Below are positions 34,113 through 42,831 of a DNA stretch of 64,000 nt, piece by piece. The DNA comes from Anaerolineales bacterium (GTDB lineage: Bacteria; Chloroflexota; Anaerolineae; Anaerolineales; Villigracilaceae): NCBI GenBank assembly GCA_017985935.1, contig JAGNWT010000002.1, forward strand, positions 1-64,000. The letters run 5' to 3'. A program made the translations under genes and the position numbers. Within the stretch, counting starts at the first letter, position 1; each line of letters opens with the position of its first letter. The notes under the pieces were generated by a model. It was not told the origin of the DNA. It saw nothing but the letters and a program-made list of their open reading frames with translations, and did not search any database.

Positions 34113-35498
34113 CTATTTCCAGAATTGAGGAAGATGCTCCTTGTAGGTTTTTAGATAATTATCCAGAATAAGCCGGGCGGTATCAAGCTCATGGGTGACA
34201 GGGTCAAGCAACAAACACTGTAATGCCTTTTCATAATTTCCTTCAACAGCAGCATCCACGCCCAGTTGCGCAGACATCAACTCACGACGGCACAGCTCAG
34301 CAACAGGCTCAGGCAGCGCGCCCACATGGACCGGATGAATCCCTGAGCCGCTGACCATGACCGGCGTTTCCACAATCGCACCAAGCGGCAGGTTACTGAT
34401 CTGCCCGGTATTCGGCAGGTTAGCCGCGAGGTGATAGTGACTTCCCGCGCACGAAATATTCTCGATCATTTCCAGAGCGCCTTCAGAGTCTGAATCCACC
34501 AAACCCTCGATCGTCAAGCTGTTATTCGCCATATCATTCAGCCGGTCGAGACTGAAATCTCGCAGCCCCGCCATCACATCCCAATCATACAGGCGGATAT
34601 TGAACTTCTCCCACGGCTTGGTGACCGGGTCACTCATCCAGGGCAGGTACTCACAGAGATGGGTATCTCCAGGAACCGGGAACAAGCCAAAGTCACGGAA
34701 GATGCGGCGCGTAAGCGGCTCAAACTTTTCATCCAACTCGAAGAAACGCTGCTTCAGGAGCGGATACAAATCCTCCCCTGTGCGCCGGTCGTGAACAGAC
34801 AATACCCACGTAAAATGATTGGTGCCGGCCGCGCGGATATCGACCAGAGGGACTGTTTGATGAACGACCGCCTGCTGGAGCGGATGCTGAAACACATCGG
34901 CATGCATGCCTTCAAGCCCATCAGGGACCTGGATACCAAGATCCCTGGCAAGCGCAACCCCCACCATGCCATAACCAGCGTATATCTGGTGGCACAGCCC
35001 GACAACTTTTATTTTGCTATATCGATTGACCAGATCACAAATACGCACCATTGGATTGGTAAAGTTGATGAACCAGGCATTGGGACAGGCTTGCTCCATA
35101 TCCCTAAGGATCCCCAATAACGGCATGACGTTGCGTGCCGCGTGGATGAATCCGCCGGGACCGCCGTTTTCAGCATATGGTTGATGCACTCCATATTTCA
35201 AAGTGATCTCGTAATCAGACCTCCACAACTCCTCCCGCGGACCTACTTCAATGGCCGAGACAACAAAGTCTGAGCCACCAAGCGCATCTTTATGACTTGC
35301 GTGAGCAGAAATGGTGAACCCCGCATCCCACTCCCGATTCAATCTATTCGAAAGCCGATGGACAATATCAAGGCTTTGGGCGTTCCTATCCACGAGCGCG
35401 AGATGTGAGCCTCGAAGTTTTTTTGAGCGCATGAGCGCGGACAAGGTGTTCTCTCCAAATGAGGCGCTGCCTGCGCCGATCACTGTGATCTTTGGCAT
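34113..35498 (-). CDS. GH4-family NAD-dependent glycosidase (alpha-galactosidase/alpha-glucosidase type)
   Basis: The second of two nearby ATGs (35498, 461 residues) is preferred because AGGAG lies seven bases upstream of it. GH4 enzymes use NAD+ and a divalent metal to cleave glycosides by an oxidation-elimination route. The N-terminal Rossmann motif 'ITVIGAGSASFG', 'FTNPMVRICDLVNRY', the metal-binding Cys/His in 'VVGLCHQIYAGYG' and 'GTNHFTWVLSV' are visible. The anomer and sugar cannot be fixed from sequence, although nearby galK favours galactosides. It follows the export operon terminator by 44 nt and has its own terminator. Confidence 0.88.
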   Translation of the reverse strand: MPKITVIGAGSASFGENTLSALMRSKKLRGSHLALVDRNAQSLDIVHRLSNRLNREWDAGFTISAHASHKDALGGSDFVVSAIEVGPREELWRSDYEITLKYGVHQPYAENGGPGGFIHAARNVMPLLGILRDMEQACPNAWFINFTNPMVRICDLVNRYSKIKVVGLCHQIYAGYGMVGVALARDLGIQVPDGLEGMHADVFQHPLQQAVVHQTVPLVDIRAAGTNHFTWVLSVHDRRTGEDLYPLLKQRFFELDEKFEPLTRRIFRDFGLFPVPGDTHLCEYLPWMSDPVTKPWEKFNIRLYDWDVMAGLRDFSLDRLNDMANNSLTIEGLVDSDSEGALEMIENISCAGSHYHLAANLPNTGQISNLPLGAIVETPVMVSGSGIHPVHVGALPEPVAELCRRELMSAQLGVDAAVEGNYEKALQCLLLDPVTHELDTARLILDNYLKTYKEHLPQFWK

Positions 35499-35537
35499 GG
35501 TCATTCTCCTTTTATCGACAAGGGATTCGGGGGATTA

Positions 35538-35575
35538 AAAAAATTAGCGTGCTGGATCTCTCCAACACGCTAATT
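35538..35575 (-). terminator. Intrinsic terminator of the export operon
   Basis: ATTAGCGTG / CACGCTAAT (35543-35573) with an inner TGGA/TCCA pairing is followed on the minus strand by TTTTTTTAAT, about 20 nt after the second adaptor gene. Confidence 0.88.
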
Positions 35576-35590
35576 GTAATGCTCGACGTT

Positions 35591-36385
35591 CTATTTCGTT
35601 TGAATTTCCACTTCTGCGCTCATACCCCAGCGCAGTCCTTCGGGCTGCTCTTCCAATTCCACAGTGACAGGGTACACCACATCACCGCCGACAATTCTGG
35701 AAACCGGTGAGATATTGACCACTTTCCCAGAGACCGTGACATCGAGCGATTCGATGTACACGTTCGCACTCTGACCTACTTGCACAGCCGCCACGTCTCT
35801 TTCGCTTAGATCAGAAGTTTCGATCTGCATATGAGCCAGGTCGCCCAGCACAATGACCACCTCCCCCGTTCGCGTGTACTCACCAGGCTGCACTCGAACT
35901 TCGATCACAGTTGCATCGAAAGGAGCTGCAAGAGAGGTTTGGGCAAAGGCGGCTTTGGCGGTTTCCAATTTTGCGAGCACGCCATCCAACTCTGCCTTTG
36001 CCTGATCACGCCGCTCCGGCGGACGATCCTTGCGGGGGATCCAGTATTTATATTCATATTGCGCAGACTCAACAGCAAGCTCAGCAGCAGTGACGGAAAG
36101 CTCAAGGTCGGGAGAGAACAAAGTGACCAGAGTTTGCCCGGCTGTCACCACGTCCCCTTCCTTGACCAGAACTTCCTTCACCGCGCCAGAAATTACAAAG
36201 CTCATGTGCGATTCATGCGAAGGTACAGCCTCGGCGGAAGCCACCACTCCCCCAGAGGAAACCAGGCCGCTTGGAACAGGAGCAGCTGTCGGTGCGGAAG
36301 GAGGCGGAGTTGCGGTTGGCGCGCTGCCGCATGCCGCGATAGTCACGGTCAATGCAAGGAGCACAGTCCAAAAAATTTTCTTCAT
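35591..36385 (-). CDS. Membrane-fusion (HlyD/MacA-like) adaptor lipoprotein
   Basis: The start at 36385 gives 264 residues and a lipoprotein signal peptide 'MKKIFWTVLLALTVTIAAC' with Cys19 as lipidation site. The mature part begins with a Pro/Thr/Ala-rich linker. The adaptor core has a biotinyl-lipoyl half motif ('VKEVLVKEGDVVTAGQTLVTL'), a helical hairpin region (about 110-155) and the second lipoyl half ('APFDATVIEVRVQPGEYTRTGE'), then beta-barrel domains. It follows its paralogue by 10 nt, and the two end almost identically ('QPEGLRWGMSAEVEIQTK' versus 'QPEGLRWGMSADVKIETK'). It probably couples the FtsX-type permeases to an extracytoplasmic partner. Confidence 0.85.
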   Translation of the reverse strand: MKKIFWTVLLALTVTIAACGSAPTATPPPSAPTAAPVPSGLVSSGGVVASAEAVPSHESHMSFVISGAVKEVLVKEGDVVTAGQTLVTLFSPDLELSVTAAELAVESAQYEYKYWIPRKDRPPERRDQAKAELDGVLAKLETAKAAFAQTSLAAPFDATVIEVRVQPGEYTRTGEVVIVLGDLAHMQIETSDLSERDVAAVQVGQSANVYIESLDVTVSGKVVNISPVSRIVGGDVVYPVTVELEEQPEGLRWGMSAEVEIQTK

Positions 36386-36395
36386 GGGAATCTCG

Positions 36396-37184
36396 CTACT
36401 TTGTTTCGATCTTGACATCCGCACTCATGCCCCAGCGTAAACCTTCAGGCTGCGAATCAAATTGGATGGTCACTTTATAAACCACGTCGCCGCCGACGGT
36501 CTCAGATATGCGGGCAATGTCGCTCACTTTGCCGGTGAATTCCTCGTCAAGCGCGTCGATGAAAATTGTGGCGCTCTGACCGACCTGCACCGAGGTAATA
36601 TCCTTTTCGCTGAGATCGGTGGTTTCGATCTGGAAGTTCACAAGGTCGCCCATCACGATCACGATCTGACCGGGGTTGACGACTTCAGCGGGGGAAATAT
36701 CCACGGTCGCGATCATGCCGTCGGTCGGGGCGAGGAGCGTGGCTTGCGCCAGCTGCGCCTTTGCGATCTCCACCGCCGCCATGGCGCGCTCCACATCTGC
36801 ATTGGCCGCGTCGAGTCTTTCCACGGTTGCACCTGAACGCTTGAGATAGGTAACCGTAGTCTGGGCGATGATCACATTCGCTTCGGCTTCCTTCACACGC
36901 GACTCAAGGATCGCGCTGTCTAACGTGACCAGGGTCTGATTCGCGGTTACTGAATCACCTTCGGCAACCTCAACAGTTTTCACCATGCCAAGAGTCGGGA
37001 ATGCCAACTCCACTTTTTGCATGGGGACGACCACCGCAGAAGCGGATGCGCTGCCAGAAGAAGCGGAGGTCTGCGCGGCTTGATCCAGCGAAACGGTGGG
37101 GATGGCCGTGGGGGTGGCAGATGAGCCACAGGCGGTGAGCGCCAAAACCAGGGCGCTGGTCAATATCCAAAATACTTTCTTCAT
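36396..37184 (-). CDS. Membrane-fusion adaptor lipoprotein (paralogue)
   Basis: This 262-residue lipoprotein has the signal peptide 'MKKVFWILTSALVLALTAC' (Cys19) and a Ser/Thr/Ala linker. It has the same core as the following gene: 'VKTVEVAEGDSVTANQTLVTL', a helical hairpin ('ESRVKEAEANVIIAQTTVTY') and 'APTDGMIATVDISPAEVVNPGQ'. It clearly arose by tandem duplication with its neighbour. It follows the ATPase by 98 nt, where a TATACT box and two TTGCACAG direct repeats suggest a second internal promoter. GGAG lies 10 nt before the ATG. Confidence 0.85.
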   Translation of the reverse strand: MKKVFWILTSALVLALTACGSSATPTAIPTVSLDQAAQTSASSGSASASAVVVPMQKVELAFPTLGMVKTVEVAEGDSVTANQTLVTLDSAILESRVKEAEANVIIAQTTVTYLKRSGATVERLDAANADVERAMAAVEIAKAQLAQATLLAPTDGMIATVDISPAEVVNPGQIVIVMGDLVNFQIETTDLSEKDITSVQVGQSATIFIDALDEEFTGKVSDIARISETVGGDVVYKVTIQFDSQPEGLRWGMSADVKIETK

Positions 37185-37282: not shown

Positions 37283-37963
37283 TTATTTCGAATCCTTGAC
37301 GATCACACCATCTTCAAGAGTGACCACACGTGAAGCGTAATTTATGACACGCGGATCGTGTGTAGCGAAGACAAAGGTCTCCCCTGTTTCTTGATTAAGC
37401 TTCTTCATGATCTCCATCACCTGTTTCCCATTCTCGGTATCGAGATTGGCGGTCGGCTCATCGGCGAGGATGAGTGCAGGTTTGGGTGCCAAAGCACGGG
37501 CAATGGCGATGCGTTGCTGTTGACCGCCAGAGAGTTGATCGGGGCGGTTATTGGCGCGATCGGTTAAATCCACGGCGTTGAGCAGTTCCATCACACGGTC
37601 GCGGCGTTCTTTGGGGGAATGTCCATTCAACAGCAGGGGCATTTCCACATTTTCATAAGCGGTGAGCGTGGGGATCAACGCAAAGAATTGGAAGATAAAC
37701 CCAATATGACCTTTGCGCATGTCGGCGCGTTGATTGCGGTTAAGGGATGTGACTTCCTTGCCATCCACAGTGACCCGTCCGCTGGTAGGCTGGTCGAGGC
37801 AACCGATCATTTGCAAGAGCGTGGTCTTGCCAGAACCAGAAGGCCCCACCAAAGCTGTGAATTCTCCGCTATTAATTGAAAGGCTGACCCCGCGCAACGC
37901 ATGGGTTTCCAACTTCCCAATTTGATATGTACGAGTTACGTTTTCGATCTTTACAACTTCCAT
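37283..37963 (-). CDS. ABC transporter ATPase (LolD/MacB type)
   Basis: This 226-residue ATPase belongs to the MacB/LolD/FtsE group that partners FtsX-type permeases. Walker A is 'GPSGSGKT' (40-47), the Q-loop is at '[18 protein letters not shown]', the signature '[15 protein letters not shown]', Walker B '[13 protein letters not shown]' and the H-loop 'FATHDP'. All are intact. It lies between permease genes (30 nt upstream) and adaptor genes (98 nt downstream). Confidence 0.92.
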
Positions 37964-37993: not shown

Positions 37994-39214
37994 TTATTTT
38001 TCTGCACGCAATGCCTGAACAGGCTCTAATCGAGATGCCATCACCGCCGGGTATAAGCCGGAAAGGATGGTGGCAATGAAGGTCATGACGGTGACATTGA
38101 CTGTGTTATCCACTGTCAATTGGGCGCGGATGGTATCTGAGACCAACATGCCGCTCAGCCCCATGTTGCCGACGAAAAAGCCATTGATATTGAAGAGATA
38201 GACGGCAAACACGCCCAATGCCAATCCCATCACGATGCCGCCAATTGCCAGCATGAACGACTCCGCCAGGAATAATGCCAAAATGCGCCCGCCGCGCATG
38301 CCAATGGCAGAGAGGATGCCGATCTCGCGTGTTCGTTCGTAGACGGACATGATGAGGGTATTGACAATCACCGAAGCCGTGATGGCAAGAATGATGAGAT
38401 AGAAGAACGAGATATAGCTTTGTGCCATAGTCTCGAACTCCACGAACAGCTTGTTCAGGTCACGCCATGTGAGCACTTCCAAGCTCGATGAAGATTTCAA
38501 TGCCGCCACAACCTGATCGGTATCAGCAGTGTCATTGAGAAGCACGAAGATCGTGCTGGCATGACCTTCTGTTTGTGTGATCGCCTGTGCCTTCGCCAAA
38601 GGCAGGAAGACCGTGCCACTATCAAAGCCATAGGTATCGGTAGTGTAAATACCACGGATGGTAAAGACCTGTTCCTGAACATTGCCATCGGCTGTGTTGA
38701 CCGAGAGGCTGACCTTATCGCCCACTTTCAGGTGTAACTTCTCTGCCGCCGGTCGACCGATCAATAAACCTTCACGGTCATCAGCATTGAGAAATTCTCC
38801 GCTGATGATCCCATTGCGATACGGGTCATTCGCCACAGACTGTGGGTCGATGCCGTAGATCTGCACGCCCGTCGATTCATCCCCCGTGGAGAGGAATCCG
38901 CTCGCGAACAAACGCGGGGTGGCGGCTTTTACCTGCTCCAATGCGCTGATCTGGCTGGCAATCTCATCCGGGTTCGCTACGAGGTCTTCCCACTTAAGAC
39001 TCGATTTGTTCGCATCGTAGGATGCGGCTCGAATTTGAATATGTCCGCTCTGCAGGTTAATGGCAGACTCAACGGCACTGCCCATTTCACCTTGAATGAC
39101 AGATGACATTAACATCAACAACGCAAGCCCGATCGCGACAGCCAATGCAGAGAAGAAATTCCTGCGGCGATTGCGACCCAGGTCACGAAAAGCCATTTTA
39201 AAAATCTGTATCAT
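37994..39214 (-). CDS. FtsX/MacB-type ABC permease
   Basis: This 406-residue protein has the MacB/LolC topology: an N-terminal span ('RNFFSALAVAIGLALLMLMS'), a large extracytoplasmic domain (about 45-270) and three C-terminal spans with the FtsX motif 'YERTREIGILSAIGMRGGRI'. It ends with 'ASRLEPVQALRAEK', as usual for this family. It is a paralogue of the preceding gene, 8 nt apart, so the functional transporter is probably a heterodimer. Confidence 0.88.
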   Translation of the reverse strand: MIQIFKMAFRDLGRNRRRNFFSALAVAIGLALLMLMSSVIQGEMGSAVESAINLQSGHIQIRAASYDANKSSLKWEDLVANPDEIASQISALEQVKAATPRLFASGFLSTGDESTGVQIYGIDPQSVANDPYRNGIISGEFLNADDREGLLIGRPAAEKLHLKVGDKVSLSVNTADGNVQEQVFTIRGIYTTDTYGFDSGTVFLPLAKAQAITQTEGHASTIFVLLNDTADTDQVVAALKSSSSLEVLTWRDLNKLFVEFETMAQSYISFFYLIILAITASVIVNTLIMSVYERTREIGILSAIGMRGGRILALFLAESFMLAIGGIVMGLALGVFAVYLFNINGFFVGNMGLSGMLVSDTIRAQLTVDNTVNVTVMTFIATILSGLYPAVMASRLEPVQALRAEK

Positions 39215-39222
39215 GATGCACC

Positions 39223-40449
39223 TTATACAAAATGCAGAGCTTCAGCCGGTTCGCGTCGTCCGGCCTCGATGGCAGGGATAACCGATGCCAGCGCCGAGAT
39301 GACCGCGACCATGGATGCCCGCATGAGCAACTTTTCAACACCCCAGGTGGGGTAAACCTTGTCTTTGATCAGTGCCATATAACTGGCAGCTTGTGTCAGG
39401 GAACCAAAGTCCATGCCAACTTTCATCAGGTATCCGTTGAGCGCCAATCCCAGAGCAATGCCTACTGCAACCCCGACCAGACCGATCATGGTGCCCTCAA
39501 GGATGAATAACAGCGCGATCTGATTGGCTTTGAGTCCCATTGCGCCCAGCACGCCGATCTCGCGCGTCCGTTCGTAGACTGCCATCAGCAATAGGTTGAG
39601 AATGCCCACGCCCGCAATCGCAATGATGATGACGCTAAAGACATTCATCACACCGCCTTTGGAGTCGATCGCATTCGCAAGGTCGGGGTAATTTGCCTGG
39701 AATGATTCGATCTCATAGCCCGGCAGGCTGGCTTGCAAACTCTTGATGACTTCATCTTCCTGCCCCAAATGCTCGAGGAAGATCGCCACTTCTGTAGGAG
39801 CGGTCAGATCGTAGAGAGTTTGTGCTTCGGCTAATGAGATATACACCGTCTGCTTTTCAATGTCTGCCATGCCAAGGTCGTAGATGCCGACAATGGTCAT
39901 TGTGCGTTGACGCATTTCTTTGTTTTGGGAACGTCCAACCATGGTGATGCGATCCCCCACCGTAACATCCATGGCATCGGCGAGTCCCTTGCCGATCAAG
40001 ACATTGTCAACATCGTCACTCACAAGGTTACGTCCCGCAGTGACATATTGACCGATGAGATTAACCTGCACTTCTTTCTCTGGCTCAATGCCTGTAATGA
40101 CAACCGCAAAGGCACCTTCACGATTCGTCACCAAACCGCCGGTATTGATGCGTTGAGTCGCAGCAAGGACATTTGGGTTCGCTTCGGCGGCGTTGACCAC
40201 TGCCTGCGCATCGGTCAACGGTAGCAGCGGAGTGGAACCCACTTCAGCCCGATACCCTTCCGCATGGACTTGGATGTTGCCTCCCAAGACCTTCACCGCA
40301 TTGCCATAGATCGCATCGGTGAAACCGTTCATCAACCCGTCGTAGAACATCATTAAGGACAGGCTCATCGACATGGCAAGCACAATGATCACCGTACGGC
40401 GTTTGTGCCTCCAAATGTTACGCCATGCCAGGCGTAGATATAGATTCAT
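39223..40449 (-). CDS. FtsX/MacB-type ABC permease (paralogue)
   Basis: This 408-residue permease has the same plan: first span 'RRTVIIVLAMSMSLSLMMF', a large periplasm-type domain and three C-terminal spans containing 'YERTREIGVLGAMGLKANQI', ending 'EAGRREPAEALHFV'. It is the first structural gene after the TetR regulator (40 nt gap). In these systems, permease movement is coupled mechanically to the adaptor outside the membrane; the cargo is unknown. Confidence 0.88.
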   Translation of the reverse strand: MNLYLRLAWRNIWRHKRRTVIIVLAMSMSLSLMMFYDGLMNGFTDAIYGNAVKVLGGNIQVHAEGYRAEVGSTPLLPLTDAQAVVNAAEANPNVLAATQRINTGGLVTNREGAFAVVITGIEPEKEVQVNLIGQYVTAGRNLVSDDVDNVLIGKGLADAMDVTVGDRITMVGRSQNKEMRQRTMTIVGIYDLGMADIEKQTVYISLAEAQTLYDLTAPTEVAIFLEHLGQEDEVIKSLQASLPGYEIESFQANYPDLANAIDSKGGVMNVFSVIIIAIAGVGILNLLLMAVYERTREIGVLGAMGLKANQIALLFILEGTMIGLVGVAVGIALGLALNGYLMKVGMDFGSLTQAASYMALIKDKVYPTWGVEKLLMRASMVAVISALASVIPAIEAGRREPAEALHFV

Positions 40450-40489: not shown

Positions 40490-41182
40490 CTAAGAAGAAG
40501 GAGATATCCATTCTCTCAAGATATCCATTGTTCCTGTCCAAAGAGAACCGGCGGGCGCGCCGAGAATACGCTCCAAGCTCTCGTAGTAGGAACCTACCAC
40601 CAATTCAAGTTTCTCCAAAGCATCAGGCGGCGGGTGATCTGCCAGCAGCAGTCCAACAATATTGCCTTCCAATCCGCGGGAAAGACCCAGCATCGTATCT
40701 GCGAACTGCTCGGGGTAACGCGTCGAAAACGTCCCTTCTTCAATTCCCTGATGGATAATCCCCGCAAGTTTTGGGGAAAAATGCTTCATAAAAGCCGCTT
40801 CTTGCTTATGACGAATTAAAGCATTTGAATCGTCATACCAGATGCGCATGAGGTTAAGTATGAAAGGTTTTTGATCTATTTTCCAACGGCTCCCAGCATC
40901 GAAATACTGCTTCATTTTTTCAACCGCCGACAGGTCCGCCGCCTCAAGGATCGGAGACATCACCTGATCCGCTTCTTCCAACATCTGCTCCACCAGCCCA
41001 TCCAACAGGGATTGCTTCGAATCGAAATAGTGATAGAACGCGCCTTTTGAGATCTTCAACGAATCCAGAATATCCTGAATGGACATGGCTTCGTACCCTT
41101 TGGTGTAAACCAGTTTACGAACCACATCCAAAATCTCTTTGCGCTTGGCAGCGTAATCTTCTTCTTTGACAATTCTAGGCAT
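40490..41182 (-). CDS. TetR-family transcriptional regulator
   Basis: The start at 41182 (230 residues) has GAGGTG upstream; the longer frame would cross the operator. The N-terminal helix-turn-helix ('YEAMSIQDILDSLKISKGAF' then 'YHYFDSKQSLLDGLVEQM', about 29-66) is a clear TetR DNA-binding domain; the rest (about 70-230) is a ligand-binding helical domain. It is the first gene of the efflux operon. A perfect 21-bp palindrome lies 13 bp upstream of its start codon, so autorepression lifted by a transported or sensed ligand is the likely mode. Confidence 0.92.
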   Translation of the reverse strand: MPRIVKEEDYAAKRKEILDVVRKLVYTKGYEAMSIQDILDSLKISKGAFYHYFDSKQSLLDGLVEQMLEEADQVMSPILEAADLSAVEKMKQYFDAGSRWKIDQKPFILNLMRIWYDDSNALIRHKQEAAFMKHFSPKLAGIIHQGIEEGTFSTRYPEQFADTMLGLSRGLEGNIVGLLLADHPPPDALEKLELVVGSYYESLERILGAPAGSLWTGTMDILREWISPSS

Positions 41183-41194
41183 AACACCTCTTTT

Positions 41195-41215
41195 ATAAAC
41201 CGACCGTCGGTTTAT
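41195..41215. promoter_or_regulatory. Perfect 21-bp palindrome, probable TetR operator
   Basis: The arms ATAAACCGAC and GTCGGTTTAT are separated by one C. The site is 11 bp downstream of the -10 box and 13 bp upstream of the TetR start codon, so a bound dimer would block transcription initiation or early elongation. Confidence 0.85.
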
Positions 41216-41226
41216 TTTCAATTCAG

Positions 41227-41255
41227 ATTATATGTCCGACAAAGTTCTCTGTCAA
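41227..41255 (-). promoter_or_regulatory. Consensus promoter of the TetR/ABC export operon
   Basis: TTGACA (41250-41255 on the minus strand), a 17-bp spacer and TATAAT (41227-41232) match the sigma-70-type consensus perfectly. Such a strong promoter makes sense only if it is repressed, here presumably by the operator just downstream. Confidence 0.88.
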
Positions 41256-41375
41256 TAGGTTGTGGCAAATTAAACGTTCTCCCCCAGCCGAAGCCTGATT
41301 CATTTTCAACCGGCATTTCATCACCTTCAAAAAGACCGGTTTATTAACAAGTCTGCTATCAGATTGCAAACAAGA

Positions 41376-41960: not shown

Positions 41961-42000
41961 ACAAAATCGGCGGACTGTAACAGTCCGCCGATTAATTATT
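41961..42000. terminator. Bidirectional intrinsic terminator
   Basis: A perfect 13-bp stem (AATCGGCGGACTG / CAGTCCGCCGATT) closes on a TAA loop, with AATTATT on one side and, on the other strand, TTTTGTTTTG. Confidence 0.85.
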
Positions 42001-42021: not shown

Positions 42022-42831
42022 TCAAGAAAGATCCTGCCGGATCAGAGAAGGGGGATTGTTCATCCCCAGCCTCGCAAGTACCAGCGCAACAAGCAGCCCC
42101 GCACGCCAAAAAGCCACCGCAGCCATGCCATGCGCCAGAACCGCAAACAATGGCGGGGTCTCATTCGTGTAATAGACCCAGCATTCACGGGTGGTTCCCC
42201 ACAGCTCAAGGAAGTATCCCAACCCCGCCCCCGCAAGGAAAGTCAACAAGGTAAAGCGATGATCGGTGGGAGTGAATATCAACAGCACACAAAGCAGAGT
42301 GGCGAGCCATGTGTAGGATTTGTTAAATGTCGGAGAAACAAAGATCAACATAAGGGTTAAGAAAGACCCGAAGAGGATCCAGTACAAAACCTTTGTCATG
42401 GACGAAAGCAGGGGCGACCGCCTCTTTCCCATCAACCAGTTGAGTGACCGGGCAATTCGATCGATCGAAAGGGATGCGATCGGCCAGGCAGGTATGATCC
42501 ACAAGGGCGGGCGTTCGGCGGTGTAGTAATGCCAGAGATTGGTCTGCGTCCCCCAACTTTCGATAGCCAGCCCGCCGCAGATCCCGACAAAAACGATCAA
42601 CAGATCGGTCTTGAGATTGGCACGCGCCACGATGGTAACGGACATGAAAAGAAACACGCCCAGCAGCAGCCAATCCATATACAGCCACCACGGACCGTTC
42701 CAATCTACAAAGGCAAGATACTCTTCGGCAAGCGGCCACCAGATGTAAACAATGAGAAAGATGGTGACAAAGAAGCCGCCAAGCAAAATGGAAGAGTCAC
42801 GGGTCCAAAATCTATTTTCTTTATTTTCCAT
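42022..42831 (-). CDS. Polytopic membrane protein with an internal duplication
   Basis: This 269-residue protein has about seven hydrophobic segments. Two copies of one motif with identical spacing are visible: E91-x-W-G-T-x4-W-x-Y-Y-T-x-E-x-P-P-L110 and E209-x-W-G-T-x4-W-x-Y-Y-T-x-E-x-P-P-L228, each followed by a hydrophobic segment. The protein therefore seems built of two tandem halves. I do not recognise the family. Charged and aromatic residues at membrane edges could form a symmetrical active or transport site. Confidence 0.6.
   Translation of the reverse strand: MENKENRFWTRDSSILLGGFFVTIFLIVYIWWPLAEEYLAFVDWNGPWWLYMDWLLLGVFLFMSVTIVARANLKTDLLIVFVGICGGLAIESWGTQTNLWHYYTAERPPLWIIPAWPIASLSIDRIARSLNWLMGKRRSPLLSSMTKVLYWILFGSFLTLMLIFVSPTFNKSYTWLATLLCVLLIFTPTDHRFTLLTFLAGAGLGYFLELWGTTRECWVYYTNETPPLFAVLAHGMAAVAFWRAGLLVALVLARLGMNNPPSLIRQDLS

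Follow-up and report, generated by a model that had tools for sequence, protein, structure and literature searches.

A candidate operator class for a TetR repressor lineage at the head of an FtsX/MacB-type exporter operon in an Anaerolineales bacterium

A perfect 21-bp palindrome at positions 41195-41215 of a 64,000-nucleotide stretch of Anaerolineales DNA (hereafter the window) is very likely the operator of the adjacent TetR-family regulator, through which that protein would silence its own gene along with the downstream exporter genes until a ligand releases it. The arrangement has the form of an ordinary TetR autorepression switch and, judging from sequence comparisons, is real and well supported. 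A consensus promoter with an operator at its start site had been proposed here in the original prediction, and this reading is supported by comparisons of relatives and genomes that tie the palindrome to the lineage of the repressor. The features of the locus are as follows, each with the evidence on which it is based.

41250-41255, minus strand: -35 hexamer TTGACA (sequence, promoter scan and shuffles)
41227-41232, minus strand: -10 hexamer TATAAT, spacer 17 (sequence and promoter scan)
41191-41219, no strand: extended conserved dyad of 29 bp, centre +/-14, from which the window deviates at the outermost left base (column information in relatives)
41195-41215, no strand: predicted operator, perfect 21-bp palindrome ATAAACCGACNGTCGGTTTAT (sequence, rarity, conservation upstream of 74 of 80 relatives)
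40490-41182, minus strand: tetR, 230 aa, P0001, with PF00440 and PF21303 (domain search, alignment, structure model)
39223-40449, minus strand: FtsX/MacB_PCD permease 1, 408 aa, P0002 (family searches)
37994-39214, minus strand: FtsX/MacB_PCD permease 2, 406 aa, P0003 (family searches)
37283-37963, minus strand: LolD/MacB-like ABC ATPase, 226 aa, P0004 (family searches)
36396-37184, minus strand: HlyD-type adaptor with lipobox, 262 aa, P0005 (family searches; lipobox by eye)
35591-36385, minus strand: second HlyD-type adaptor with lipobox, P0006, start ATG at 36385 (family searches; start and lipobox by eye)
35542-35575, minus strand: intrinsic terminator closing the operon, 15-pair stem and T run (terminator/hairpin scan)

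On the minus strand, TTGACA (41255-41250), a 17-nt spacer, TATAAT (41232-41227), 11 nt (41226-41216), the palindrome (41215-41195) and a further 12 nt containing a purine-rich AGAGG lead to the tetR ATG at 41182, so that the proposed TTGACA-N17-TATAAT promoter 11 nt ahead of the palindrome proved exact, coordinates included, by sequence, scan and shuffles. No other promoter on either strand of the 64 kb matches the consensus at 12 of 12 positions; 20 Markov shuffles produced none, and promoters with at least 11 of 12 matches arose 0.4 times per shuffle. From the usual promoter spacing, transcription would be expected to start near 41220, which would place the palindrome at about +6 to +26 and the longer conserved dyad at about +2 to +30. 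A repressor bound between +6 and +26 would block initiation or promoter escape, and such a placement is the one expected for repression.

The palindrome reads ATAAACCGAC-G-GTCGGTTTAT on the minus strand, with 10-bp arms around a 1-bp centre, and is followed by the tetR gene and the ABC operon just as had been claimed. For palindromes of this kind, with a 1-bp centre and arms no shorter than 10, the expectation is 0.06 per 64 kb, and the shuffles gave 0.1 each; when all centres from 0 to 8 are allowed, about 0.002 with such arms would be expected by chance in the intergenic stretch. The window holds two with a 1-bp centre, and the other is a terminator-like hairpin at 41965-41993. That hairpin is a perfect 14-bp inverted repeat that looks like a terminator on both strands, and it is likely a two-way terminator between the gene for a DUF3597 protein and a membrane-protein gene. 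The genome search that had been suggested for further copies of the palindrome found it in one place in the 3.82-Mb assembly, even with up to 3 mismatches, and a wider regulon of this operator in the genome was rejected on the same result. Also rejected was a second operator at 41337-41344, where the original prediction had noticed a half-site-like 8-mer. The 8-mer, CGGTTTAT, is indeed present there; its role as an operator fell away, given that it occurs 6 times in the window against 1.14 expected (two of these being the palindrome arms), that no second site, with 4 mismatches allowed, is seen at a similar position in the relatives' loci, and that the adjoining DUF3597 gene is absent from the 80 relatives' loci.

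Conservation was assessed with 80 relatives of the TetR protein (34-66% identity), mostly from Chloroflexota, with some from Dormibacterota and Actinomycetota by record title. Sites were scored against AATAAACCGACNGTCGGTTTATT, a consensus written after the upstream regions had been viewed, and were accepted if they lay no more than 250 bp upstream and differed at 6 or fewer of the 22 positions. An accepted site lies upstream of 74 of the 80 relatives (75 of 81 with the window included), compared with 0 of 81 for the reversed pattern and 0.05 of 81 for shuffled upstream DNA. Promoters matching at least 9 of 12 consensus positions are found near the site in 57 of 75 cases, against 4 of 75 in shuffled DNA at equal score, and 47 of these 57 end 4-14 nt ahead of the 23-mer site. 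Across the 75 aligned sites, columns outside the dyad mostly carry less than 0.2 bit and those inside carry up to 2 bits, which indicates that the site itself has been kept and not a shared ancestral stretch. Since nearly every related repressor has this site at its promoter, the TetR protein itself very probably binds there.

The six relatives that lack an accepted site were dropped from the column alignment and from the table of residue 46, which cover 75 of 81 rows, and in three of the six (L028, L057 and L062) a site lies further upstream. L028 has a perfect operator 1.5 kb upstream, and L057 and L062 each carry a site at 952 bp, which in L057 precedes a methyltransferase-like ORF (named by eye) that in turn precedes tetR. 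Elsewhere in 1.07 Mb of relatives' loci just four sites have 4 or fewer mismatches, and these three copies are among them. No accepted site was found anywhere in the loci of L026, L048 or L078; upstream sequence for L048 is limited to about 100 bp, and L078 carries a diverged version, ACCGACCGGCAGTCGGT. Three of the relatives' loci, L028, L026 and L045, show peculiarities of their own. A transposase-like ORF in L028 (5951-7522) separates operator and tetR, and the regulator may have been cut off from its promoter. The L026 contig is labelled Methanoregula and carries a TetR of the lineage with no operator; this contig is possibly misplaced. In L045 (Dictyobacter vulcani), the DNA upstream of 8001 has a further operator-like arm between the first one and tetR. 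Beyond the 80 relatives, three of 26 plasmid records were examined, from Phyllobacterium, Rhizobium etli and Bacillus safensis; their regulators, at about 30% identity, have a ACCGACCGTCGGT or ACCGACCGACGGT core upstream, and in Phyllobacterium the site lies between tetR and a divergent adaptor-permease-ATPase set.

Site and repressor also occur together across the class, in a set of 298 genomes that overlaps with those of the 80 relatives, so that the two counts are not independent. With up to 2 mismatches the site is present in 11 of the 298 genomes (reversed control, 3), and each of these also belongs to the 23 genomes that have a TetR match at 1e-20; the hypergeometric probability, uncorrected for relatedness, is 4e-14, or 5e-13 when the window's own genome is left out. 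The remaining 12 of the 23 genomes have a TetR match and no site at 2 mismatches. Around the 22 TetR loci other than that of the window, 16 have a copy with up to 6 mismatches and 6 do not, one of which is at a contig start and one a C-terminal fragment. In 10 of the 11 site-bearing genomes, about 40 bp at most separate the site from tetR. The exception (G143; L093 1490-1530, G143:C927) has it away from the TetR match, behind a promoter-like stretch and ahead of a gene for an HlyD-like lipoprotein; a gene for an FtsX-type permease lies upstream (both genes were named by eye), and no tetR of the lineage was seen in the 3-kb stretch. This site is likely a target of a TetR encoded elsewhere in that genome, and even here the operator goes with an exporter. 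The TetR is matched at 1e-15 in only 2 of 37 genomes of the genus, which marks the cassette as patchy.

The regulator itself belongs to the TetR/AcrR family on several grounds. Its N-terminal TetR_N helix-turn-helix matches PF00440 with 50 bits (cut-off 24) and its C-terminal ligand/dimer domain matches PF21303 with 33.3 bits (cut-off 27); NCBIfam gives it no name above cut-off. The structure model, which drew on 40 of the 81 regulators, is all-helical with a pLDDT of 90.4 and finds its best structural match in 3b81. Among the 75 aligned sites, column information drops sharply beyond centre +/-14, giving a dyad of 29 bp whose flanks have A at -14 in 67 sites and A at +12 in 62. Such a dyad is long for one dimer, and by analogy it might be occupied either by two dimers, as for QacR and CprB, or by a single dimer whose N-terminal tail could reach the flanking A/T minor groove through R3. 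The latter residue is invariant in all 79 rows that have a residue there, the tail is not helical in the model, and Tyr3 of EilR is described as reaching A/T flanks (PMC6127294).

In the recognition helix, position 46 comes just before an invariant Gly47 and is occupied by Lys in 57, Arg in 8 and Ser in 16 of the 81 proteins, with Lys in the window. An intact inner arm (CCGAC or GTCGG) accompanies 59 of 62 K/R proteins, compared with 0 of 13 S proteins that have a site. The S proteins L057 and L062 fit this pattern in their distant sites, the arms of which read CCGAG and CTCGG, and L031, a K protein beside the larger S branch, has a standard site. In a tree built without column 46, Ser46 falls on two separate branches. 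An independent-pairs test of the link between residue and operator has 2 pairs and cannot reach 0.05; with two branches only, the association of Ser46 with an altered inner operator is suggestive at the sequence level.

Downstream of tetR, the operon genes are separated by gaps of 8 to 98 bp, and the promoter scan found no other minus-strand promoter with at least 10 of 12 matches between 41190 and 35580; all six genes would be read as one transcript up to the terminator. The MacB_PCD, FtsX, ABC_tran and HlyD domains all exceed their Pfam cut-offs, which marks the operon as encoding a MacB/FtsX-type exporter, and the NCBIfam equivalog cut-offs for LolCDE are missed (LolC/E 157.9 and 164.4 against 362.45 bits; LolD 253.7 against 307.75). 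No match to OEP (TolC) or Omp85 was found in the genome, although each was matched in 7 of 14 control genomes, and for this reason the exporter probably acts across one membrane. A single-membrane exporter with membrane-anchored adaptors is the simplest reading of these genes. Several neighbours can be recorded as well. Directly after the operon (34113-35504, minus strand) is the gene for a 463-aa protein, which we take to be GH4-like and which is retained next to the operon in 6 of the relatives' 80 loci. Ahead of the operon is that of a 269-aa membrane protein (42022-42831, minus strand; 8 of 80 loci), and between it and the operator is the DUF3597 gene (PF12200; 41419-41943, plus strand), seen among the loci examined only in the window's genome, with no NCBIfam match for its product.

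The operator is constant while the cargo genes vary. By hand count, an FtsX permease match follows tetR in 35 of the 80 loci, and the other next genes were sampled by running 10 proteins of the 80 loci on Pfam. These include ABC ATPases (L012, L031, L036), PEMT/ICMT-type methyltransferases (L017, L080), an alpha/beta hydrolase (L061, Mycobacterium), an FAD-binding protein (L079), a second TetR (L063), a weak MarR match under cut-off (L019) and a protein without a family (L065). By eye, 21 of the 80 next ORFs start like the L031 ATPase (DrrA-like, ABC-2 exporters), for which Pfam was run on L031 alone. In L063 (8001-9449), two tetR genes stand in tandem ahead of the permeases, the second being of another subfamily (PF16859, below cut-off).

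Other explanations of the palindrome must be weighed against an operator of the adjacent TetR. From the window alone it could be taken for an inverted repeat that arose by chance or is decaying and has no function, since palindromes of this size turn up occasionally, but the site is retained by 74 of the 80 relatives and the control scored 0 of 81, which leaves this hardly credible. The palindrome might instead act as RNA, forming a hairpin in the 5' leader that is terminator-like or masks the ribosome site. It does lie in the leader just ahead of a purine-rich ribosome site, and it also scores as terminator-like on the plus strand. However, a 1-bp centre makes a poor loop, and the base changes in relatives do not resemble those of a hairpin under selection: at opposed positions of the 75 sites, G-U combinations number 33 and A-C combinations 30 in 825 cells, and the position with most of both, the outer ones aside, has 9 of each, whereas a hairpin would favour G-U. 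Furthermore, operator bases change together with residue 46 of the protein, and a role as RNA is on balance highly improbable.

Somewhat less probable again is that the palindrome is bound by a regulator other than the adjacent TetR. Regulators of the TetR fold share similar sites, and the genome gave 13 first-look candidates for TetR, so that other TetR-like proteins probably exist in the cell. Such a protein would need to account for the co-occurrence of site and TetR of this lineage in 11 of 11 site-bearing genomes, for the single copy of the site in the genome, and for the way in which the site stays with this TetR while the cargo changes. Recognition by the adjacent TetR is thus the preferred reading. 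Under autorepression, a TetR dimer, or a pair of dimers, would occupy the palindrome just downstream of the transcription start and keep RNA polymerase from starting transcription or escaping the promoter, which would silence tetR together with the five exporter genes that follow, in a negative autoregulatory loop. A ligand, probably the exporter substrate or a related compound, would then bind the C-terminal domain and release the repressor.

The operator class appears to be widespread, judging from the loci compared here. What began as one promoter becomes a defined operator class for a large Chloroflexota TetR lineage, and the consensus can be used to predict which exporters are controlled. 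We might go further and regard TetR and operator as a portable unit that ranges from Chloroflexota and Dormibacterota to Actinomycetota (as the core only, to Alphaproteobacteria and a Bacillus plasmid) before varied exporters and enzymes, with the change from K/R46 to S having rewritten inner operator base pairs twice independently to yield a nearly orthogonal natural pair. This wider proposal is tentative, and we give it a little less than even weight. The K46 and S46 lineages nevertheless offer a ready-made pair for testing how TetR specificity changes, on CCGACNGTCGG and CCGAGNCTCGG sites.

Comparisons with known systems place the switch among familiar parts. Four exact spellings of the operator core gave no match in the running text of the papers searched, which is no proof that the site is undescribed, and the titles and abstract openings retrieved for a comparable Chloroflexota TetR regulon or for the half-site strings held nothing relevant. 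The exporter resembles MacAB, LolCDE and DevBCA-type systems in its FtsX-MacB permeases, LolD-like ATPase and HlyD adaptors, and differs from them in having two separate permeases, two lipoprotein adaptors, no OEP (TolC)/Omp85 match in the genome, and scores below the LolCDE equivalog cut-offs. PfmR of Thermus thermophilus (3vpr, identified with TTHB023 because both bear the name PfmR) is the second-best sequence and Foldseek match. Its sites, given as TACCGACCGNTNGGTN and (a/c)Y(g/t)A(A/C)YGryCR(g/t)T(c/a)R(g/t) (PMC7022988), are shorter at 16 bp, have an even spacing and serve fatty-acid metabolism genes, unlike those described here. The layout of the mycobacterial RaaS (Rv1219c) locus is similar, as its autorepressed tetR is described as leading an operon with ATP-dependent efflux genes (PMC3993263), and its ligand is reported to be acyl-CoA (PMC4155686). 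A site of the RaaS type was rejected, however, as it consists of two imperfect 12-nt direct repeats (PMC3993263) and not of a single palindrome.

CprB, of the gamma-butyrolactone receptors of Streptomyces, is described as binding a 22-bp site as a pair of dimers, with K43-G44 of the recognition helix touching bases (PMC4150764), and by eye these residues are the counterparts of K46-G47 here; its ligand class and genes are different. Alanine at K43 alone hardly altered CprB binding (PMC4150764), so the link between Ser46 and the altered operator would not be explained by a lost contact alone. QacR of Staphylococcus aureus is likewise a repressor of TetR fold that controls an exporter, although one of another class. 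It was absent among the best 60 of 65 phmmer matches and among the 50 Foldseek matches listed; the TetR model aligns with QacR 1jtx_A at Z 14.8 and rmsd 3.5 over 185 residues with 15% identity. Its operator IR1, CTTATAGACCGATCGATCGGTCTATAAG, is reported to lie at -6 to +21 over the start with the half-site TATAGACCG (PMC9210681), which nearly equals the WATARACCG of the present site and is similarly placed, with half-sites spaced by 6 bp compared with 5 bp here and a total of 28 bp compared with the 29-bp dyad. Among the published descriptions found, QacR IR1 thus appears to be the nearest counterpart in both half-site and placement.
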